A stretch of DNA of 64,000 nucleotides from Candidatus Schekmanbacteria bacterium (GCA_016188575.1 JACPHN010000032.1:62001-126000), one strand, 5' to 3'; counted from the stretch's first letter, positions 1,139-12,299 are shown. Numbers and translations are program-made. Notes: generated from the letters alone by a model not told the origin.

Positions 1139-1524
1139 TCTCGCCGCCTTCGCCAGCCCCTCCGGTCCCTCCAAACGCCGCATCACCTCGCGCAGCCATC
1201 GGTCCTCGTTGCGGTCCCCGTCGCTACCGCGCTCGCGGCCTGCGCGCTCCGCCATGAGAGCTCGCCACCGCGGGAGAAAGTCGCCGAGCCCCAGGAGCGG
1301 CTCCACAGCGATGCGCTCCATCTCCCGAATGGGCGCCCAGAAGCTCCCGGCGGCGGCAGCCGCAGCCAGCCGTCGTCTTGCATCCGCAGCATGGCGACGC
1401 GGCAGCTCATGTCCTTGGGCCGTCCGTCGTCTCGTCGCCATCCGAGCTGCGCGCAGACGAGGCGAGAGAGATGAGCACGAGTGGCCGTCGGGTGATCCTC
1501 AATCAGCTTCCGGGTTGCCGCCGG
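1132..1524 (-). pseudogene. DUF4338-family remnant joined to an unknown fragment
   Basis: From 1524 to 1348 on the minus strand the reading frame has the N-terminal signature of DUF4338 proteins (Druantia DruA-like or transposase-associated): RKLIEDHP, then QLGWRRDDGRPKDMSCRVAMLR, ending LRLPPP. A stop lies just upstream at 1525-1527. At 1348 the similarity ends abruptly. A different frame then reads SFWAPIREMERIAVEPLLG and continues to about 1132 as a plausible but unrecognised protein. The sharp junction indicates a deletion or recombination that fused two gene fragments. Family assignment is from remembered motifs, not a search. Confidence 0.45.
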
Positions 1525-1599
1525 TCACCGAAGCCGCCGTCGAGCGGGCACGGATGAATGGCTCGACGTCGAGCGCCGGTGCGCGCTACATTGGCCGGC

Positions 1600-1860
1600 A
1601 TGAGCCTCAGGAATGCCATCCGCTTCCTCGGCGAGATCCGCGCCGATCCATCCCTACGCGGCGCTCTGACCGGCGGCGCCCACGAGCCGACCCTGGCCGC
1701 CGTCGCGCAACTGGCCGCGAGCCGGGGATGCGCGTGCAGCGAGGACGATTTGCGCCTGGCCTTTCGCTACGACTGGGTCATGCGCGCCACCTACTTCAAC
1801 CTGCGAACACAACCGGGAGCACCGTCGACTCTCGCACCAGACGATAGGGTCGCCAGATGA
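1600..1860 (+). CDS. Nif11-like leader-domain small protein
   Basis: An 86-aa product beginning MSLRNAIRFLGEIRADPSLR, followed by LAAVAQLAASRGCACSEDDL. This matches the Nif11 domain layout (short helix, DPxLRxxL, xLAxxxGxxFxxxEL). Nif11 domains serve as leader peptides for some RiPPs but also occur in stand-alone small proteins. The conserved-looking part ends at FRYDWVMRATYFN, about residue 67. The last ~20 residues overlap the antisense P450 remnant and may be an artefact of a rearrangement. No lanthipeptide synthetase or radical-SAM enzyme is nearby, only the divergent lasso-type operon. No strong ribosome binding site is visible. A role as a precursor is inference. Confidence 0.5.
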   Translation: MSLRNAIRFLGEIRADPSLRGALTGGAHEPTLAAVAQLAASRGCACSEDDLRLAFRYDWVMRATYFNLRTQPGAPSTLAPDDRVAR

Positions 1861-1978
1861 GCGCCTCCGGCGGCAGCGCCAGGCGGGGCCGGCGACGCAG
1901 GTCCAGCGCGTCCGGGTTGGCAAAGCGCGCCGGGTCGCGGTTGGCGGCATCGAGGATGGCGAACATGGCCCGAGCGAT
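1796..1978 (-). pseudogene. Cytochrome P450 C-terminal remnant lacking the heme-Cys loop
   Basis: The minus-strand frame reads AANRDPARFANPDALDLRR, the classic P450 meander segment before the heme-binding loop. It is followed directly by LIWRPYRLVRESTVLPVVF, which resembles the last strand of bacterial P450s (WRP....RG...LPVRF). The FGxGxHxCxG heme loop and the L helix that should lie between, about 50 residues, are missing. The frame also has an upstream stop at 1979-1981. It sits just downstream of the RiPP operon on the same strand, so it may be a decayed tailoring enzyme of that cluster. Confidence 0.5.
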
Positions 1979-2039
1979 TCATTGGGCTACGTCGATCGTG
2001 GACCGGTTGTCGCTGGCGGCTGCATGTGCGGGGCGAGGC

Positions 2040-4139
2040 TCATCGCCTCGGCAATGTCCTGGCGTAGCGCTCGATGGCGGCAAGTACCGTGGCAGTGGTG
2101 GTGGTGCGCCGCCGGTCGATCGCCGGCACGGTCTCGCCGGCGTGGTTGGGTATGGCCAGCAGGGCCGAGGCCGCCCAGGAGCCGTCGGGCATCTGGCTGC
2201 GCGCCAACGTCTGCGCCAGGCGATGGCTCGGCTGCGGGTGTCGCTCGGGCATCACCAGCAGCGTACGCAGCAGCAGCGCCGCCGCGAAGGGCGCCAGAGG
2301 CAATGGCGCGGCTGCGGTCGCCGCGGAGGGTGGAACATGGGGCAAGCATCGTCCGGCCGCCCAGTCGACAGCACGCGCGGCGCGTGCCTGGTCGCCGGGC
2401 TCCGCGCTCCGGGCAAGCGCCTCCGCGGCCAACGCCGTCGGATAGTAGGAGTCCGGCCACCAGTAGCCCTGCCAGCAGCCCTCGCCATGCTGCGTGCGGC
2501 GCAGGTGCGCGCGCGGCCCGTGGCCGGCGTCGCTGGTCGCGGCGACCTCCAGGCCGGCGGCGGCCGCGGTGACGCAGACATGGGCCTCGTACCACCGCGG
2601 GTTGACATCGCCGCCGTGCAGCGAACGATGCTGTCGCTCTTGCCGGCAGTAGGTGGCGACCCCTCCGCCGGCGGCGACGTGGGTCCGAAGGAACGCTGCG
2701 GCTGCTCCAAATGGGGCGGAAGTGGTCTCCCCGAGTAGTTCCCCGAGGCGCAGCCCCCAGGTCGTGCTGTCGGCGTCGGCCGGCTGCACGAAGTTCCATC
2801 CCCATCCCGCCCGCGGTCGCCGGCAGAGAAGCTGCCACGCGCGCCGGGCGGCATTCAGCGCCGGCTCGGTGCCGATCTCCGCGAGCACTGCGCCGACGTA
2901 GGCCGTGGGCCACTCGTCGGCAATGCCTTCGCGGAAGCCGTCGTAGTCCAGCCACCAGCCGCCCTGGGTGCGCGAGCCGAGCAGGAACGAGCAGGCACGG
3001 GCCGACACCGCCCGGAGCTCGATCGACTCGCCGCCGCCGGGACACCGCAGCGGATTCTGCGGCGGTACGTATGGCTCGGCCGCGGCCGGCCGCCGCCATT
3101 CGTGGACGAAACCGAGATAGCCCTTGGCCGCCAGCGGCCGGCCGTCGCGGTAGCTGACCTTGACGTGGCTGATGCGGCAGTCGAGCACGCCCAGCTCGTC
3201 CGGCTCGCGCAGCAGCGAGGCCGCAATCAGGGCGTCCGGCCAGGGTCGCGAGGCGTTCTGAGGAGTCAGCGTGTGCGGCCACGACAGCAGGTCGGCCCAC
3301 CGCTCGCGCCCGCACAGACCCCGTGCAGCCAGCCAGTCGACGAAGGCGTGCCAGCGCGGATCGAGGCCGCTGGCCTGCGAAAGGAAGCACTCGAAGCTCA
3401 GCTCCGCAGCAAGCTCCGAGGCTGCCGTAAGGCACAGCCGCACCTTGTCACTGTAGCCGAAGAGCATCTCGGCGAGCTCACAGGCTTCGTCGGCCGGACC
3501 CGGCCAGGCAACGTCGGCCAGGAAGCCCGCGGTCGATTCCGGCGGCAGCCCGTCGACGTTGAGGCGAAACCGGCCGGCGCGATCGGAAGCCATCAGGCCG
3601 ACGTGGCTCACGAAGGCCGACTGCGGGCACGCCGCGAGGATCCTCCGCAAGCACGCCATCGCCCCGGCGGGGACAGGCGCTGCCAGCACGGCCAGCACCG
3701 CCCCCACCATCTGCGCGAGGTCGGCTGCCCCCGTTCCCGCAACCGGACGAAGGAAGATCGACAGGGGGGCCGCCCCGGCCGGCGCGGCGGGGCGGTCGAG
3801 CTCCAGCCACAGCTCCGCCAGCGTTCGATGGAGCAGGCTGTTCGGCGTCGACCACTGCTTTGCAAGCCGCTGCAGCCGCGGCCAGTCGGCGCCAGCCGGT
3901 GTCGTGCTTGCGGCGCTTGCTCTGGCAAGATGACCGCGGAGGATTTCCGGCTCATCGTTGCTGGCCGCGATCCGCTGCTGCAGGTCGATCGTCCGTCGGC
4001 CGACGAGCGGCACCTCGATGCCCGCAAAGACAAGCGCCGGCAAGAGCTCTGCGACTGCAAGCAGCTCCGGCGGGATCGGCGTCCACGAGCGTTCCTCCAA
4101 GACGAAGCGCAGGATCGGGGCGAGAGTCGAGCCGTTCAC
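2040..4139 (-). CDS. Large RiPP-cluster protein with terpene-cyclase-like (alpha/alpha) C-terminal barrel
   Basis: The GTG start at 4139 overlaps the kinase stop (GTGA), giving 699 aa and translational coupling. Residues ~1-370 form an unassigned domain with distinctive stretches (FGYSDKVRLCLTAASELAAEL, LDCRISHVKVSYRDG, AAKGYLGFVHEW). Residues ~400-690 carry helix-repeat features of the squalene-hopene cyclase/prenyltransferase alpha/alpha barrel: GGWWLDYDGFREG, GWGWNFVQPADAD, GYWWPDSYYPTALAAEAL and a QW-like SQMPDGSWAAS near the end. The DxDD motif of class II terpene cyclases was not found. The operon context suggests a tailoring or processing step on the lasso-type peptide; the reaction is unknown. 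A stand-alone cyclase-like enzyme is the alternative. Confidence 0.6.
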   Translation of the reverse strand: MNGSTLAPILRFVLEERSWTPIPPELLAVAELLPALVFAGIEVPLVGRRTIDLQQRIAASNDEPEILRGHLARASAASTTPAGADWPRLQRLAKQWSTPNSLLHRTLAELWLELDRPAAPAGAAPLSIFLRPVAGTGAADLAQMVGAVLAVLAAPVPAGAMACLRRILAACPQSAFVSHVGLMASDRAGRFRLNVDGLPPESTAGFLADVAWPGPADEACELAEMLFGYSDKVRLCLTAASELAAELSFECFLSQASGLDPRWHAFVDWLAARGLCGRERWADLLSWPHTLTPQNASRPWPDALIAASLLREPDELGVLDCRISHVKVSYRDGRPLAAKGYLGFVHEWRRPAAAEPYVPPQNPLRCPGGGESIELRAVSARACSFLLGSRTQGGWWLDYDGFREGIADEWPTAYVGAVLAEIGTEPALNAARRAWQLLCRRPRAGWGWNFVQPADADSTTWGLRLGELLGETTSAPFGAAAAFLRTHVAAGGGVATYCRQERQHRSLHGGDVNPRWYEAHVCVTAAAAGLEVAATSDAGHGPRAHLRRTQHGEGCWQGYWWPDSYYPTALAAEALARSAEPGDQARAARAVDWAAGRCLPHVPPSAATAAAPLPLAPFAAALLLRTLLVMPERHPQPSHRLAQTLARSQMPDGSWAASALLAIPNHAGETVPAIDRRRTTTTATVLAAIERYARTLPRR

Positions 4140-5134
4140 GGCTGCCGGCCTCCCCTGACAGCACCGCGACAAAGGACCGCATCGACGTGACGTACGAGCA
4201 GCTCGGTCAGGGCTGGCCGCTGCTGCCAGATCGGCGTGCCGCGCAGCGCGTGGATCGGCAGGGTGCGCACGATGTGCGCACACAGCTCCACCTGCTGCGG
4301 CGTGAGCAGGTGCGGCATATCGGGCGGATACTGGGCCGCACAGAGCATGGCCAGGGCGGCGGGACCGCCGACGGGGGTGACGGCCGCCGGCTCTGCGTCG
4401 TCGGCCGGGCAAAGCACATACATGGCTGCAAGCGGCACGGCACGGGCGCAGATCCTGTCGCTGCCGGCCGCGGAAACGTCCCAGTAGTGCTTGTTCGTCC
4501 ACGGCACCACGCGCAAGTGGTCCGCCGGCAGCGACAGCTCCGCCAGCGCGTCACCGGCGAGGCGTAGCGCCGGATAGCCCGGCGGCACGACGACATCGTC
4601 GCCGTGCCGCTCGAGCACCACCAGATCATCGGCAACGAGCGCAAAGCCGCGTTGGATCAGTGATGCGGCAAGCGTCGACTTGCCGGCGCCCGCGAGCCCG
4701 AGCAGCGCAATGGCAGCGCCGTCGCGCTCGACGACGGCGCCGTGCATGCACAGCACCTGCCGCAGGCGCAAGCAGTAGCCCAGACCGATCCCCTGCAAGA
4801 CCACGAGCGCCGCCGTCAGCTTGTCCGGACAGACCGAGCTCATGCGGATAGCGGTCCCAGCGGAATCGTAGAGAAGCACCAGATGCCGGCCCCACGAGAG
4901 CGCTCGATCGCCGCGCCGGTTCTTGCTGGCCTGAGGCTGTGTCGCATGCGCGGGCCGCCGGATGACGCGCCAGGCGGGTGAGCTCAGGTCCGGGACCTCG
5001 CAAGGCCGCCACCACACACGGACCGCGGCGTCGTTGGAGACGTCGTGCTCGACGGGGATTCCCGCAAGAGCGACGTTGCTGCGCAGCGACAGGCCGTAGA
5101 CGCGGTGGAAATGGTCGGTCACAAGGACGTGCAT
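4136..5134 (-). CDS. HPr kinase-like lasso peptide kinase
   Basis: 332 aa from ATG at 5134, overlapping the cyclase end by 16 bases. It contains an HPrK-type nucleotide-binding core: His131 in MHGAVVERDG, a P-loop GLAGAGKST at residues 146-154 and the DD pair in ALVADDLVVL at 169-170. This is the layout of HPrK/P-related kinases found in lasso-peptide clusters, such as those that phosphorylate the C-terminal Ser of paeninodin-type peptides. The neighbouring precursor ends in Ser, which fits this substrate. The N-terminal ~120 residues are a variable family-specific domain. An upstream in-frame Met at 5314 lies inside the cyclase gene and is unlikely to be the start. Confidence 0.8.
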   Translation of the reverse strand: MHVLVTDHFHRVYGLSLRSNVALAGIPVEHDVSNDAAVRVWWRPCEVPDLSSPAWRVIRRPAHATQPQASKNRRGDRALSWGRHLVLLYDSAGTAIRMSSVCPDKLTAALVVLQGIGLGYCLRLRQVLCMHGAVVERDGAAIALLGLAGAGKSTLAASLIQRGFALVADDLVVLERHGDDVVVPPGYPALRLAGDALAELSLPADHLRVVPWTNKHYWDVSAAGSDRICARAVPLAAMYVLCPADDAEPAAVTPVGGPAALAMLCAAQYPPDMPHLLTPQQVELCAHIVRTLPIHALRGTPIWQQRPALTELLVRHVDAVLCRGAVRGGRQP

Positions 5135-7065
5135 CGTCCGCTGCGCTCCAGCCAATCGACGAAGCACGCGACGTTGGTGCCTCTTCCGACGATGGTGAAG
5201 GTCGTTGCCGACCAGTGCTCGCGCCGGGCCGGACGGACCGCCGCCAGGGCGTCGAGAAGCCGCCGGCGGTCGACGTAACGCCAGCAGGCGGAAGCGGCCC
5301 TGTCGTGCGCCCATTGCTCCACCTGGCCCCGCGTCGCCGCCAGGCGGGACTGGATGGCGGGGTCGAAGGCCCCGCCCTTGTCGCGGCGCTGCCGCACTGC
5401 CTCCGGAAGCACGCCGCGCAGCGCCCGCCGAAAGAGGCTGCGGGACCAGCCGTGCCGCTGGAGCTGCTCCGGCGGTACGCGGATCATGAGCTCGATGACG
5501 CGGCGATCAAGCAAGGGAAAGCGTACGTCCTGCGAGTACGTCGCGTCGAACATGCGCACGCATTGCGAAATGGCATGCTCCAGCCGCCCCGGCTTCATCA
5601 ACTGGAGCATCTGCCTGCGCGGCGATCGTGTTGTTATGAAGTCGGCCAGGTCCGGATCGAGCCGGTCGCGTGAGGCGCCGGCTCTGGCGGCGAGCCACGG
5701 GTGAGTGCAGGAGGCACGGCGGCGATTGCCGTGACGAAGCCGGCGGTACAACCGCCTGGCCGCCGGCGGCAGCAGCGGCTGAATCGCATGCTCGCGCAGG
5801 ATCGAGAGCCAGGACCGGTGCTCCTCGCGCCGCAACGCGGCGAGCTCGGCGGCGGCGGCGAACCAACGGCCGGTCGCGAACAGCTCGCGAATCGCCGTCG
5901 AGCCGCGCCAAGAGGCGAAGAAATCGCCGCCAAAACCGCTCAAGACGACCTCGACACCCGCTTCACGCCCGGCCTCGCCAAGAGCCAGGTCGATGTACGG
6001 GACGAAGCTGAAGGGCATGTCGGAGAGCGTCTCGCAGTACTGCCCGATGGCCTCCAGGGGCGCCACATTGAGCGGCGCCCGAACCCAGCGGACGTCGACG
6101 TTCCCTTGCTGGGCGGCGACCGCTCGCATGTACTCGCGCTCATCGACCTCGACGCCGCTGTAGTCATCCGCCAGGATCGAGCTGAGAGCTACCAGCCGCC
6201 GGCCCTGCTCGCGCAGCTTGGTGGCCGCGACGGACGCGATGGCAGAGGAGTCCAGGCCGCCGCTGAGGTGAACGGCTGTCGGGCGGCCGGCGTCCACCCG
6301 GCAGCACACCGCTTGCACGATCCGCTCGCGCAGATCCGCTTCATAGTCGGCATCGTTGCGATACGACAGCGGCGCGAGCGCTTCCGGCGTCCAGTAGCGG
6401 CTTGGCGTGGTGCCGCCGCGGCGAACGGTCATCGAGTGGCCGCTCGGAAGCACCCGGACATCCTCGTAGATCGTGGTCCCGGGTGGACCGTAGCCGCCCA
6501 CCTCGAGGTAGTCGGCGATCGCGACGGCGCGCAGGCGGCAAGGCACGAAGGGAAGCGAGAACAGAGCACCGAGGTTGCCCGCGCAGGCGAAGATTGCGGG
6601 CGAGTCGAAGTAGTAGAGGGCGCGGACGCCAAGGCAGTCGCGTGCAGCGAAGAGGAGCTCGCGCCGTCGGTCCCAGATCGCGAAGGCGAAGTCGCCGAGC
6701 AGCCGTTGTGGACACTGATCTTTCCAACGGGCGTAGGCGCGCAGCAGGAGATCGGCATCGCTGCAAGTGGCCGCCGCGGACGGGCACAGTGCGAGCGCAG
6801 CGCAGAGCTCGGCTCGATTGTCGAGCCGCACGCTAGCCGCGAGCAGGCAGGCATCGCCGTCGACGAGCACCGGCGCGGCCGCGACGGCGGCGCCGCTCGC
6901 GGTTTCGTCGCCGGCGCCATACAACGCCACGGGCGTTCCGTCGACAGCGTGCACCGCGACGCCTGCGGGGCTCGTGCAGGCGCCCAGCAGCGCCGGCCAG
7001 GGGGCGCCGTTGCTGGCGCCGCCGATCACGGCGCCGCGGTAGAAGGCTGCCGCCCACACCGTCAT
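5119..7065 (-). CDS. Lasso cyclase, asparagine synthetase homologue
   Basis: 648 aa. The N-terminal half is a degenerate glutamine amidotransferase domain. The protein starts MTVWAAAFYRG and so lacks the catalytic Cys2 of true asparagine synthetases, as lasso cyclases do. The C-terminal synthetase domain carries the PP-loop SGGLDSS at residues 268-274, used to adenylate the side-chain carboxylate. It would activate the ring Asp of the core peptide and close a macrolactam with the core N-terminus. The start codon overlaps the RRE gene stop (ATGA). In this operon a lasso cyclase is far more likely than AsnB. Confidence 0.85.
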   Translation of the reverse strand: MTVWAAAFYRGAVIGGASNGAPWPALLGACTSPAGVAVHAVDGTPVALYGAGDETASGAAVAAAPVLVDGDACLLAASVRLDNRAELCAALALCPSAAATCSDADLLLRAYARWKDQCPQRLLGDFAFAIWDRRRELLFAARDCLGVRALYYFDSPAIFACAGNLGALFSLPFVPCRLRAVAIADYLEVGGYGPPGTTIYEDVRVLPSGHSMTVRRGGTTPSRYWTPEALAPLSYRNDADYEADLRERIVQAVCCRVDAGRPTAVHLSGGLDSSAIASVAATKLREQGRRLVALSSILADDYSGVEVDEREYMRAVAAQQGNVDVRWVRAPLNVAPLEAIGQYCETLSDMPFSFVPYIDLALGEAGREAGVEVVLSGFGGDFFASWRGSTAIRELFATGRWFAAAAELAALRREEHRSWLSILREHAIQPLLPPAARRLYRRLRHGNRRRASCTHPWLAARAGASRDRLDPDLADFITTRSPRRQMLQLMKPGRLEHAISQCVRMFDATYSQDVRFPLLDRRVIELMIRVPPEQLQRHGWSRSLFRRALRGVLPEAVRQRRDKGGAFDPAIQSRLAATRGQVEQWAHDRAASACWRYVDRRRLLDALAAVRPARREHWSATTFTIVGRGTNVACFVDWLERSGRCTSL

Positions 7066-7361
7066 TCGACAGGCGGATCCTGCGGCCGCTCGAGGTCGAT
7101 CAGCTCAGCCTGGTAGAGGCGCGTGAGGAACGCCAGCACGTCTTCTCGACAGCGTCCCCACTCGACTTCGTAGCGCTCGACGACGGCGTCGACCACGGCA
7201 TCGACCGACATGGGACGGTCGATCAGGCGCCAGATGACTCCTCCGAGGCCATTGGCGACATAGTAGGCACCCGCCTCGACGTCCATCATGACCAGCTCGC
7301 CGCCGAGCTCCGTCGACAGCATGCGGCGGCATTGCGACACCACGCTGTTGGCCGTCAGCAC
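7062..7361 (-). CDS. PqqD-like RiPP recognition element (lasso B1)
   Basis: 99 aa from a GTG at 7361 with a good GGGAGG ribosome binding site about 6 bases upstream. A longer ATG-started version from 7460 would overlap the precursor. The protein has the PqqD/RRE winged-helix pattern: ELVMMDVEAGAYYVANGLGGVIWRLID, then a helical half with RCREDVLAFLTRLYQAELI. Such proteins bind the precursor leader peptide and present it to the maturation enzymes. In canonical lasso clusters it partners a B2 transglutaminase-like protease, which is not seen here. Confidence 0.85.
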   Translation of the reverse strand: MLTANSVVSQCRRMLSTELGGELVMMDVEAGAYYVANGLGGVIWRLIDRPMSVDAVVDAVVERYEVEWGRCREDVLAFLTRLYQAELIDLERPQDPPVE

Positions 7362-7440
7362 AGGCGCCCTCCCGATGAGATTGCTGTGAGCCCAATGGAA
7401 GCGGGTCGCGAGTCCATGAGCGCTCCCTTCCGGGCAGCCG

Positions 7441-7620
7441 TTAGCTGTAGCCACCACCATCGGTTGAGGAATTGGTACCGCTCATCGTCAGCTCGCTGAC
7501 CTTGCCAGCAGAAGTCAGCAGCGGCGGCTCGTAGGGCAACCGGGCCGCGCTGGGTGCGGCTTCGGCAGTGGTACTCTTCGTTCGACGCGGCGGCTCGCTC
7601 GGCGCTTGTTTCACGTTCAT
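7441..7620 (-). CDS. Lasso-type precursor peptide
   Basis: 59 aa, ATG at 7620 immediately after GGAGG; an alternative GTG lies two codons in. The leader holds the lasso consensus YxxPxLxxxGxxxxxT as YEPPLLTSAGKVSELT, with Thr45 at the -2 position. The predicted core is SGTNSSTDGGGYS, 13 residues: Ser1 as the amine donor, Asp8 as the ring acceptor giving an 8-residue macrolactam, and a very short GGGYS tail ending in Ser. The terminal Ser matches the HPrK-like kinase in the operon. Cleavage before Gly48 is an alternative that would leave Asp at ring position 7. Confidence 0.75.
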   Translation of the reverse strand: MNVKQAPSEPPRRTKSTTAEAAPSAARLPYEPPLLTSAGKVSELTMSGTNSSTDGGGYS

Positions 7621-7668
7621 GTCCTCCGAGGTCGGCACTTCAACAAATCCATGGTCGCACGACGACAA

Positions 7669-7696
7669 CCTATACGGACACGCTGGCTGTTGTCAA
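7669..7696 (-). promoter_or_regulatory. Sigma-70-type promoter of the lasso operon
   Basis: On the minus strand a perfect -35 TTGACA (7696-7691) is followed after 16 bases by TATAGG (7674-7669). This places the start of transcription near 7661 and gives a leader of about 40 bases before the precursor ATG. No other promoter-like pair is seen between the operon genes, which overlap or nearly abut. Confidence 0.65.
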
Positions 7697-8411
7697 TCGC
7701 CCCTTCGCGGCGCATCCCGTGCCAGCGCACCAACCGACACCACGGCATTTGTCGTGCGGCGCGCGCCGGCCGCTGCATCGGCCGCGGCTATCCGTCCTCT
7801 CGCCGCACATCCGCCCCGTCCTCCTCACCGCTCCGCGCCAGCCGCACGCGCCAGCTCGCGCCCATCCGCTGCAGCTCGAAGGCGATCGTCGTCGATCGCC
7901 TCGCGCACCTCGCGGCTGTTGCTCCCGAGGCGCACGCGCACGTTGGGATGCAGCGTCCCGAGAGGACGCGCAGCTCGGCACGCGCGACATGTGCAATTCA
8001 GGTTGGACGCGGGAGCTGTCGTCCAGCTCGATTGGCGATACAATGCAGCGCCGAGGGACGCGATGAGGCTCAGTCGTCGTTGGTGGCGCGACTAATGGGA
8101 AACTCAGGTTGCGAGGTCGTCCGTTTCATCCGGCGCGGGTCGGCGATGCCGGTGGAAAACTAATGTGGAGCGATCGTCGTCGCCAAAGACCCTGAGGTGT
8201 TTACCCGCTCCGTGCCCGACGGATCGCTGACGGGCGCGGCGGTCGCGGGCTTGCTGTGGCTTCCGCACAAGCAGGCCTTCCAGGTCTTGCCGATCCTCGA
8301 TCGACTGCCTCGATCGACGCACCGCGACCTCTTTTCAGCGTAGCAAAGCCGACTCTCGCGAAAGGGACGTTGGCACCACAGAATCACCGAGATGCTCTTG
8401 GAGAGGATGGG
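7697..8411. other. Intergenic region between divergent genes, no gene recognised
   Basis: About 700 bases between the lasso promoter and the FG-GAP protein start. Open frames exist in several phases, but none has a ribosome binding site, a recognisable motif or convincing codon use. A GGAGAGG ribosome binding site for the downstream gene lies near 8400. Confidence 0.5.
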
Positions 8412-11400
8412 ATGAGCCAGCAGCTCCGGGTTACTTTTGGCCGTGCTGATTCCTGGGCCACCTCCGTGTTGTCTGTTGTGACTCTGTGGTTGCTCTGCTG
8501 CTGGCTGCCGGTGGCGGCGGTAGCCGCCGAAGTTACGTTCGAGGCTCTCGTCATCGACTCCACCACCGCCGGCGACTGCAAGATGGTCGGCGACATCGAC
8601 CGCGACGGTTTCGCCGACGTCGTCATCGGCGGGACGGCCGGCACCGAAGACCTGCGGTGGTATCGGTACCCCACCGGGGAGAAGCTGGCGATCGGGGCCG
8701 CCAATGTCGAGCTCACGACCGATGGCGAGCTCGGCGACGTGGATGCCGATGGAGATCTCGACGTCATCATCCCGGACGGAGCGTCGGGCGACAACCTGTG
8801 CTGGTTCGCGAACCCGCTCCCCAGTGGTGACCTGTTCGGCGGCGCGACCTGGACGCGTCACCCCATTGGCGCAGTCGGGGGATGGGGCAAGGACGTCGAA
8901 CCCGCCGACTTCGATGGCGATGGTCGTCTGGATGTCGCAACGCGGTCGAACGACCAGGCTTTCGTCTTCTTTCAGGACGGCGCCGCGACCTGGACCCGGC
9001 TCGTTTTTCAGGACGTCGCGCTGGGTTACGAGGGCATGGGACGCGGCGATATTGACCGCGACGGAGATCCGGACCTGCTGCTGCGCGGCACCTGGCTCGA
9101 GAATCCCGGCGGCGATGCGGCCCGCTCCGCCGCCGCATGGTCCGAACACGACATTGGGGCGGCCGACACGGATTTCAAGGTTCTCGCCACGGATCTCGAT
9201 GGCGACGGCAGGATTGACGTGCTCTACTCGAGCTCCGAGAATACGGCCGATGTCGTCTGGTGGTCCCATGGGGGTGATCCACGCGGCGCCTGGACGGGCA
9301 GGATTATCGAGAGCGCTCTGAATCGTTGCCACACGCTTCAGGCCGCGGACCTCGATCGCGATGGTGATCGCGACGTGGTTCTCGGCCAGATGCACACCGC
9401 AGCGGCGCAGGAGATCGCCGCGTACCTCAATGACGATGGCCTGGGCACCACCTGGACCCGCACCGTCTTCGGCAGCGGCGGTATCCACAACGGGGTGCTC
9501 GCCGATCTCGGCAACGACGGTGACCACGACCTGTTCGGTGCCAACTGGACGGGCAATCCTCCGGTGCGTCTCTGGCTCAATACGACCGATGCCCGCCTCG
9601 GGTTAGACGCCTGGACGTACATCGCGGTTTCCAGCAGCCACGTTCAGACGTTCGGCCTGGCGTTTGGCGATATCGACAGAGATCGCGATCGCGACATCGT
9701 CTCTGGGCCGTACTGGTATGCCAACCCCGGCGGCGACATGACCGGTACCTGGGAGCAGCGCTCCTTCCCGGCCGGACTCCACGCGCTTGCGACTGGCGAT
9801 GTCGACGGCGACGAGCTCGCTGACGTCATCGCCCAGCGCGACTCCGGGGCTCTCGAGCTCTGGTGGCTCGAGGCGGCAGACGCGGCGGTGTCCGCGTGGA
9901 CGTCCGTTTCCGTCGGCACCGTCGAGAGCGCGAGCCACGCGCTCGGCGCTCAGGGGTACCGCACCGCCGACCTGGCCGGAGACGGGCGCGCCGAAGTGCT
10001 CGTCAGCAGCGGCGGCGGGATTTACATGTTCAGCGCGCCGCTGGCTCCTGAGGCGGGAGACTGGCCGCGCACGCGAGTGACCACGAATGCCTCGGATGAA
10101 GGCCTTGCCATCGGGGACATCGACCGCGACGGTAGACCTGACATCGCCGCCACCACCGGCGACGCCAAAGGCGTGGAATGGTATCGCAACCCGGGTGCGG
10201 CCGGCGGTGCATGGGTAGCTCACACCGTCGGATCCTTTCCCGAGGCGGTCTACCCGGACCGCACCGAGATCGCCGACCTCGACGGCGACGGCCGGCTGGA
10301 CATCGTCGTCACCGAGGAGAACGGCGGCGCGGACAGCGCGGAAACCTACTGGTGGACCGCACCCCCCGATCCCACCTCGACGCCCTGGACCCGATCGCTC
10401 CTGGTCTCGCAAGGTTCCACCAACAGCCTCGACGTGGCTGACCTCGACCGCGACGGGGACGCCGACGTCATCACGGCAGAGCACCGCGGGGCATTGCGCG
10501 TCACCATTCACGAAAACGCGGGCCAGGCCACCTCCTGGATTGCGCACGAGATCGACGCCGGCAAGGAGAGCCATCTCGGCGCCAGGCTCGACGACCTCGA
10601 TCGCGACGGCGACCTGGACGTGGTCAGTATCGCCTGGGACGCGCCGAGCATGCTGCATTTGTGGCGCAACGACGGTGTCGAAGCGCCGGTGGCCACGCCC
10701 CCGAGCATCGTCCAGGCGCACGCCGTCGGCACCAATACGCGGGTGACGCTGACGTTCGACCGAGCACTCGACCGCACGTCGGCGGAAACCGCTACGAACT
10801 ATGCGATCAGCTCGCCCGCGCAAATCTTCGCGGCGCGGCTTGGCGCGACCAGCGACCTGGTCGAGCTGACCACCACGGCAATGGAGGAAGGGCGCCAGTA
10901 CGAGCTGACCGTCAACGACGTGCGCAGCAGCACCGGCGCCGCGATCGCGCCGGACTCGCGGGCGACCGTCACCTACCGCGCCATCGCAGTGCCCGACGGT
11001 CTGGTCGCATACTGGCCGTTCGAGCAGGGCGCCGGCGAAATGGCAGCGGATCTCTCCGGCCGAGGGCACGACGGCCTGCTGCGCGGAGCGGTCTGGAATG
11101 TGAGCGGCAGGTATGGAACCGCCTTGTCCCTGGACGGCGTCGGCGCGCACGTCGACGCGGGCTACTGGGGAGTCCAGGCGAGCGCGCTCACAGTCGCGGC
11201 CTGGTTTCGCGCGGAGAGCTTCGACAATGCCGACGCACGGCTGGTCTCCAAAGCGGCGGGGCCCGCCGAGCAGGAGCACGACTGGATGTTGAGCACGACC
11301 ACCAGTGGCGGCGGCATGCGCCTGCGCGGGAGATTGCGCGCCGCAGGCTCGACGCTGACAGTCATCGCGGCCTCAGGCGACCTGCAAGCCGGACGCTGGA

Positions 11401-11762
11401 TTCATGCCGCGGTCGTGTACGATGGCAGCGAGGTGCGACTCTACAAGGACGGTGAGCTGGTGGGCAGCGCTCCGAAGTCCGGAGCGCTCGCCGACAGCCC
11501 CGGCACGAAGGTGCTCGTGGGCAGCAACCCCGATGGATATGCCGCGTTCGACGGGCTCATCGACGATGTTCGCATCTACGATCGAGCGCTCGGCGCGGAC
11601 GAAATCATGGCGGTGCTTCAGGGGGGGTCGATCATCGTCTCGCAGGTTGCTCTCGGCATTGCGGTGTCGATCATCGCCCTGCTGGGGGTGGCCGCCGTGG
11701 CGCGGCGGCGCGGCCGATCGCCCGACCGGCCGGACGCGGCGCTGGCAGCTTCCTCACCGTGA
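8412..11762 (+). CDS. FG-GAP/VCBS repeat surface protein with LamG domain and C-terminal anchor
   Basis: 1116 aa from ATG at 8412, chosen for the GGAGAGG upstream and because it gives an N-terminal signal peptide (hydrophobic run ending AAVAA). Residues ~40-760 contain about 14 FG-GAP/VCBS units of the form D-x-D-x-D-G-x-x-D-(V/I)-(V/I), Ca2+-binding blades of a beta-propeller. An SbsA-like Ig segment ([19 protein letters not shown]) follows. Then comes a LamG/concanavalin-like domain beginning [26 protein letters not shown]-terminal membrane helix with a basic tail ([15 protein letters not shown]) suggests surface anchoring. Its partner or ligand is unknown. Confidence 0.85.
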
Positions 11763-12080
11763 CGCGGTCGCCGTCGCCATCCAGCGCCAGGGTGCGCCCC
11801 TCGGGCCCAGGCCGTTGCCGCAGATAACGCCTGAGCGGCGCCACGACCAGGCGCTCAATGGCGCGCCGCAGCGGGCGCGCGCCGAGCTCCCGGTCGAATT
11901 CGCGGCGCACCACCAGGTCACGAACACTGCCAACCGCAATGCCTGCGTGGCTTCACGCGCTCCAGCGTTGGACGTCATGATGATGATCGCATTCGTGAAA
12001 TCGACGTGGCGACCGCGCGCATCCATCAAGCGCCAGGCTCCGAGCACCTGCAGCAGCAGAGCGTGTGCCGACGGATCCGC
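11720..12080 (-). pseudogene. ClpB/ClpA-type AAA+ chaperone remnant
   Basis: One minus-strand frame reads [17 protein letters not shown], then [13 protein letters not shown]. This is the ClpB second AAA domain around sensor 1. The next conserved piece, [20 protein letters not shown], which is the C-terminal D2-small motif, lies in another frame, and the ~60-90 residues expected between them are absent. The remnant overlaps the 3' end of the opposite-strand FG-GAP gene. It is a deletion- and frameshift-inactivated fragment. Confidence 0.6.
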
Positions 12081-12137
12081 TCCCGAAGATCCCACCGCTC
12101 CGGTTTCCGAAGTGGATTGGCCGGTGAAGCTGCGGCC

Positions 12138-12299
12138 GTGAATCCGCTGCTCCTGGATACGTGCACCGCTCCGTGGCTCGCCGGACAGCACGAATGCTCG
12201 AGTCCTCGTGCGCAAGAGCTGTTGATCCAGCCGGACGTGATCGCGCCCGTCTCGGACTTCATTCTTTTGAGCGCTACTCGGAGAAGCGCGACGCCGTGA
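12138..12299 (+). pseudogene. VapC-type PIN toxin N-terminal remnant
   Basis: A GTG overlapping an upstream stop (GTGA) begins [16 protein letters not shown], resembling the first strand and catalytic Asp of PIN-domain VapC toxins (LLLDTcaalWla). The helix AQELL follows, then the sequence degenerates and stops after 53 codons instead of ~130. The remaining acidic residues of the active site are absent. The frame ending at 12141 could be the tail of a lost antitoxin, but shows no diagnostic motif. Confidence 0.4.

Follow-up and report, generated by a model that had tools for sequence, protein, structure and literature searches.

A predicted lasso-type peptide operon with a prenyltransferase-terpene cyclase fusion and a putative B2 leader peptidase in trans in Candidatus Schekmanbacteria

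We analysed a 64,000-nucleotide stretch of a Candidatus Schekmanbacteria genome (GCA_016188575.1 JACPHN010000032.1:62001-126000; hereafter the window, with positions counted from its first letter), which carries an operon for a ribosomally synthesized and post-translationally modified peptide (RiPP). Read from its genes and from one predicted fold, the operon probably yields a phosphorylated, terpenoid-bearing lasso-type macrolactam, whose leader would be removed in trans by a B2 peptidase and whose Tyr12 is the likely acceptor of the isoprenoid. A preliminary description of this DNA had listed a precursor, a RiPP recognition element (RRE), a cyclase, an HPrK-like kinase and a protein of 699 amino acids (aa), and all five were recovered on the minus strand between 7620 and 2040.

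Results

Consecutive genes of the operon overlap

The genes had been described as overlapping or nearly abutting, and consecutive genes do overlap: the stop codon of the RRE gene overlaps the start of the cyclase gene, the kinase ATG (5134) lies within the cyclase gene, and the GTGA at 4139-4136 combines the kinase stop with the start of the 699-aa protein. The arrangement is more than chance, since the gene order is repeated in four other genomes retrieved via the 699-aa protein; the first four homologous operons came from Sphingomonas, Niveispirillum, a Rhizobiales bin and an uncultured bin. Further prenyltransferase loci were added from Sphingomonadales and Alphaproteobacteria genomes, so that 14 loci (designated L plus number) were surveyed in all. 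Transcription from one promoter, as also proposed, could not be confirmed: no sigma-70-like site was found in 1500-8400, which is a weak test.

The 699-aa protein is predicted to fuse an ABBA prenyltransferase to an MstE-like cyclase

The label "terpene-cyclase-like", initially given to the whole 699-aa protein, applies to its C-terminal half only. With a profile of four homologues this half matched MstE (PDB 6sbb) at E=3e-65, and alone, in a single-sequence search, at 1.2e-41. The DADTT motif of MstE aligns with DADST of the 699-aa protein, and D457 occupies the position of the Asp that was exchanged in the MstE D109A/N structures (positions counted in the alignment). The equivalent Asp is kept in 12/12 cyclase-bearing homologues. 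Assignment as a squalene-hopene cyclase was rejected: scores remained below the Pfam and NCBIfam cut-offs (SQHop_cyclase_C, 20.6 bits versus 26.1), and a match of the monodomain MstE type was obtained instead.

The N-terminal half matched no Pfam or NCBIfam family. When modelled alone with AlphaFold2, it gave a predicted local distance difference test score (pLDDT) of 80.8 and a predicted template modelling score (pTM) of 0.82, and its roughly ten strands follow a repeating beta-beta-alpha-alpha pattern; a first run on the full 699-aa protein was poor (pLDDT 53). The best 50 Foldseek matches of the N-terminal model were all ABBA prenyltransferases, including PriB, FgaPT2 and the RiPP enzymes LimF, PatF and PagF. 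TM-scores were around 0.5, meaning that the ABBA fold is clear and the kinship distant. Ten residues of the domain are invariant across 13 homologues, among them H325-x-K327 and K339-x-Y341. The same domain also occurs in other RiPP surroundings, namely in Pseudanabaena beside LanM and Nif11 precursors (fused there to a 2-oxoglutarate (2OG) oxygenase), in Acaryochloris beside a radical S-adenosylmethionine (SAM) methyltransferase and a Nif11 precursor, and in Azospirillum beside open reading frames (ORFs) reading as TfuA and YcaO. On these sequence matches and the structural model, we assign the 699-aa protein as a putative ABBA prenyltransferase fused to a putative MstE-like class II meroterpenoid cyclase, and regard both identities as strong.

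Other domain partnerships were seen as well: at L095:7375-9216 no terpene cyclase follows the prenyltransferase domain, whose partner there is a region that matches a methyltransferase weakly, and at L042 the partner is a 2OG oxygenase.

It had further been suggested that the 699-aa protein took over leader cleavage from B2. Apart from the missing B2 gene nothing speaks for such a replacement, and we consider it hardly credible: each half is assigned to another enzyme, no peptidase family scored above cut-off, domain searches detected no PF13471 domain in the protein, and L076, L092 and L093 encode it alongside a B2. Accordingly, the protein was dropped as a peptidase candidate.

Prenyltransferase, kinase and RRE form a constant trio

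All 14 prenyltransferase loci contain an RRE and a kinase. A lasso-type cyclase is present in 10/14, being absent from L090, L093, L094 and L096, and an adjacent B2 gene in 3/14 (L076, L092 and L093). Thus, the constant trio is prenyltransferase, kinase and RRE, while the macrolactam cyclase and the adjacent B2 are optional. In the prenyltransferase tree, the window groups with L015, L016, L017, L090 and L091 (99/96); in the cyclase tree, the window, L015-L018 and L091 make up a clade of six loci without B2 (100/100).

P450 genes are common among the prenyltransferase loci, and in L017 an intact one overlaps the stop codon of the fusion gene. Methyltransferase, carbamoyltransferase and JmjC-type oxygenase genes are additionally present in L015, L016 and L017; on the short contig of L018, carbamoyltransferase and JmjC-type oxygenase genes were seen. 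From the set of tailoring genes in L015-L017 the window keeps only a P450 remnant, probably a decayed tailoring gene. The remnant lies at 1966-1796. The operon edge was originally placed at 1796, whereas the 699-aa gene ends at 2040. At L018:3883-5436 (Rhizobiales bin), the kinase and fusion genes show frame breaks, reflecting sequencing error or decay.

The precursor core suggests C-terminal phosphorylation and prenylation of Tyr12

The window precursor comprises the leader MNVKQAPSEPPRRTKSTTAEAAPSAARLPYEPPLLTSAGKVSELTM and the core SGTNSSTDGGGYS, with Thr(-2), Asp8, Tyr12 and a C-terminal Ser13. Its YxxP leader motif, its Thr(-2) and its Asp within core positions 7-9 are those of a lasso precursor. 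All six cores of the cyclase-bearing clade have 13 residues, Ser1 following T-x, Asp at position 8 or 9 and a Tyr-Ser end; in the aligned precursors (window, L015-L018 and L091), the putative ring residue is Asp8 in the window and Asp9 in relatives.

The kinase sequence contains HGA, GLAGAGKST and ADD, which correspond to the H, GKS and DD motifs of lasso peptide kinases. Homologous proteobacterial kinases phosphorylate a C-terminal Ser (PMC8498205). Ser13 suits the kinase and, by analogy with these characterised homologues, would be its target.

Tyr12 is the sole aromatic residue of the window core and therefore the likeliest prenyl acceptor. Moreover, every precursor found beside a prenyltransferase has a Tyr close to its C-terminal Ser; no precursor was recognised for L092, L094, L096 or the kinase cluster on contig C160 described below. 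Alternatively, the isoprenoid might be attached to another site (a Ser, a Thr or the phosphate of Ser13), or the substrate of the fusion enzyme might be the small Nif11-domain protein encoded next to it rather than the precursor. In favour of another acceptor, NctPC and MppC modify Trp (PMC13290415, PMC12715784) and cores of the window clade contain no Trp, while several Nif11 copies do carry D-W after the Nif11 domain (FRHDW/FRYDW). However, this Trp is not conserved (for example, L092 has Y, and L076 and L095 have R), and the tails are dissimilar, as expected for a partner rather than a precursor. We rate these alternatives as unlikely.

A Nif11 protein may assist the prenyltransferase in trans

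A Nif11-domain gene lies beside the prenyltransferase in 13/14 loci as compared to 0/20 control loci (260 kb). Five of the loci went into the hidden Markov model used for the survey and are thus not independent; the other eight are. In four loci, the Nif11 start overlaps the stop codon of the fusion gene by 4 bases. The Nif11 ORF was considered as a second precursor and discarded, since its tail is not conserved across the 13 copies. The lanthipeptide prenyltransferase MppC requires the structured Nif11 part of its substrate leader (PMC12715784). Therefore, we propose that the Nif11 fold is here supplied as a separate protein, which by analogy would serve the prenyltransferase as a partner in trans.

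Leader cleavage is likely provided by a B2 encoded elsewhere

As stated in the preliminary description, there is no B2 near the operon: PF13471 is absent from the window and from the whole 162-kb contig. In the complete draft genome (G000; 9.2 Mb in 275 contigs, 94% complete, 3.7% contaminated), the search retrieved a single match on another contig (C250:32357-32686, E=5.9e-24). It belongs to a protein of 166 aa in which the conserved Cys and His are both present; its neighbours, ORFs read by eye, resemble housekeeping genes, and no RRE, cyclase or kinase was found near it. This stand-alone gene makes a B2 elsewhere the best supported of the three alternatives initially offered (B2 elsewhere, cleavage by the 699-aa protein or the cyclase, or a product that is not a classical lasso peptide).

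An adjacent B2 is lacking in all seven loci of the window clade (window, L015-L018, L090 and L091). The absence is therefore no artefact of a single assembly, even though for L016 and L018, which are short contigs, it covers the available sequence only. Every operon-bearing genome searched contains at least one PF13471 gene, and G000 and G668 have exactly one each, both stand-alone. Thr(-2) is a recognition element important for leader removal (PMC10368454). It is retained in the six clade precursors with a cyclase and missing from L090, where the cyclase has been lost; this coincidence points to B2-type cleavage in trans.

The leader might instead be removed without any B2, by a general cellular protease or by the cyclase itself. 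Pseudomycoidin, to go by the title of a 2019 paper by Zyubko cited in PMC13381572, is reportedly synthesized without leader and leader peptidase. The lack of an adjacent B2 throughout the seven-locus clade would fit such a route, yet a PF13471 gene exists in each operon-bearing genome searched and Thr(-2) persists wherever the cyclase does, making B2-free removal improbable in our view.

Two more sets of RRE, cyclase and kinase genes are present in G000, on contigs C95 (L073:4504-8093) and C160 (L074:7510-10873), neither with an adjacent B2 or prenyltransferase; they may use the same C250 B2. Glycosyltransferase-, radical SAM- and LanC-like ORFs were noticed by eye near the C95 set. In Niveispirillum (L036:5827-6432), a stop interrupts the B2 gene, again due to sequencing error or decay.

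Features of the window

Coordinates of the operon and its immediate neighbours are compiled in Table 1. The true start of the RRE may lie further inside than 7460. Upstream of the operon, the plus strand encodes a 1168-aa protein (8256-11762) that by eye resembles FG-GAP repeats followed by a LamG-like domain. On the minus strand, an ORF at 11754-12215 looks like a fragment of a ClpB-type AAA protein (AHALLLQVL...) and is a possible pseudogene remnant, likewise read by eye.

Table 1. Predicted genes and domains of the operon and adjacent features in the window.
Feature	Position	Strand	Basis
Precursor peptide, 59 aa	7441..7620	-	ATG at 7620, GGAGG upstream; NF033521 lasso leader domain, 20.7 bits (cut-off 19)
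RRE (B1/PqqD-like)	7062..7460	-	PF05402 (PqqD) 1.2e-17; NF033536 1.2e-21
Lasso-type macrolactam (isopeptide) cyclase	5119..7065	-	SGGLDSS motif; PF00733 (Asn_synthase) 5.7e-34; NF033535 1.4e-105
HPrK-like peptide kinase	4136..5134	-	PF07475 2.9e-10; TIGR04352 1.6e-13
699-aa protein, whole gene	2040..4139	-	GTG start at 4139
N-terminal domain of the 699-aa protein (residues 1-349), ABBA-type prenyltransferase	3093..4139	-	AlphaFold2 model, Foldseek, homologous domains of other RiPP clusters
C-terminal domain of the 699-aa protein, MstE-like class II terpene cyclase	2040..3089	-	DADST, D457 as general acid; PDB MstE 6sbb
Nif11-domain small protein	1600..1860	+	Convergent with fusion gene; PF07862 2.7e-05
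Cytochrome P450 C-terminal remnant, directly downstream of fusion gene	1796..1966	-	TIGR04515 5.7e-05

Discussion

Proposed pathway and its weighing

We propose the following pathway, in which the order of the five steps is tentative. The RRE would bind the YxxP leader of the precursor, and the HPrK-like kinase would then phosphorylate Ser13. Subsequently, the ABBA half of the 699-aa protein would transfer an isoprenoid, most likely to Tyr12, and its MstE-like half would protonate the chain via D457 and fold it into rings. As a leader-like partner in trans, the small Nif11 protein would probably bind to the prenyltransferase. The C250 B2, not the 699-aa protein, would cut the leader after T-x, and finally the cyclase would link the Ser1 amine to Asp8.

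Several observations weigh against this pathway. The window cyclase reaches 354 bits with the lasso cyclase model NF033535, under the curated 525. On C95, where there is no prenyltransferase, a precursor-like ORF ends with SFGGSGTDSSIYS (...SSIYS), so the Tyr may be kept for the kinase. A core of 13 residues with a ring of 8-9 and a tail of 4-5 residues makes threading doubtful; a citable minimum length was not found. In the B2 tree, the stand-alone genes do not group as a single clade. Hence, of the coevolving B2 elsewhere considered in the preliminary description, the location was borne out and co-evolution with the operon was not, the scattering implying recruitment instead. Finally, the C250 B2 contig could be misplaced in the draft assembly as a contaminant.

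The product might also be a canonical short lasso peptide, with the 699-aa protein as a minor tailoring enzyme and the lost B2 replaced by any cellular B2. Lasso leader, Thr(-2), RRE and cyclase are all at hand, and kinase-type lasso clusters with B2 occur in genomes G001-G004. Against it stand the constancy of the prenyltransferase-kinase-RRE trio, the lack of the macrolactam cyclase in 4/14 loci and a core of only 13 residues, and we consider it quite unlikely. The earlier suggestion that the product is not a classical lasso peptide is likely correct in part: short core, kinase and terpenoid-forming enzyme set it apart.

Beyond the window, the loci might represent a distinct RiPP family, a wider view to which we would give somewhat less than even chances. 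Its constant trio would be the RRE, the HPrK-like kinase and an ABBA prenyltransferase, in most cases fused to an MstE-like cyclase, complemented by a separate Nif11 leader fold in trans. The product would be a short, C-terminally phosphorylated peptide with a polycyclic terpenoid on Tyr, macrolactam and dedicated peptidase would be optional, and B2 would be shared genome-wide. In a very short lasso, the bulky terpenoid could even take the role of the stopper.

If the proposed pathway holds true, a core of 13 residues that is phosphorylated, prenylated, cyclised in its terpene part and closed into a macrolactam would amount to a new peptide-terpenoid scaffold. It would also become testable whether several operons of the lasso type can rely on one stand-alone B2, and whether Nif11, as a leader fold, can function as a separate protein.

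Comparison with known systems

Cyclised terpenoids on ribosomal peptides became known only recently, and on Trp: NctPC, which combines an ABBA prenyltransferase with an MstE-like cyclase in one protein, attaches a geranylgeranyl chain to Trp in a RiPP before cyclising that chain (PMC13290415). A 2026 review of interlocked peptides mentions prenylated lasso peptides and no terpene-cyclised ones (PMC13352647). The 699-aa protein resembles NctPC-type maturases (Hubrich et al. 2024, per PMC13290415) in that an ABBA domain is followed by an MstE-like class II cyclase within one RiPP-modifying protein. It differs, in a comparison by description only, in its Trp-free core and in its lasso-type setting with RRE, isopeptide cyclase and HPrK-like kinase. 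The fused maturase is already known; as far as we checked, the novelty resides in this kinase-bearing, lasso-type setting and the separate Nif11 protein, though Hubrich et al. may mention such clusters.

With paeninodin-type clusters (PMC8498205), the operon shares a precursor ending in Ser, a discrete RRE, a lasso cyclase and an HPrK-like kinase, whereas it lacks an adjacent B2 and transporter, has a 13-residue core and possesses the extra prenyltransferase-cyclase fusion and Nif11 gene. The C-terminal half of the fusion belongs to the same sequence family as the monodomain class II meroterpenoid cyclase MstE (PDB 6sbb-6sbg), with the catalytic Asp conserved; however, MstE is free-standing and acts on prenylated dihydroxybenzoates, while the window domain shares its chain with a prenyltransferase and would presumably have a peptide substrate. 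Like MppC (PMC12715784), the enzyme would be an ABBA-type RiPP prenyltransferase tied to a Nif11 fold, but the Nif11 domain of MppE is the precursor's own leader, whereas in the window it is a separate protein beside a lasso-type precursor.

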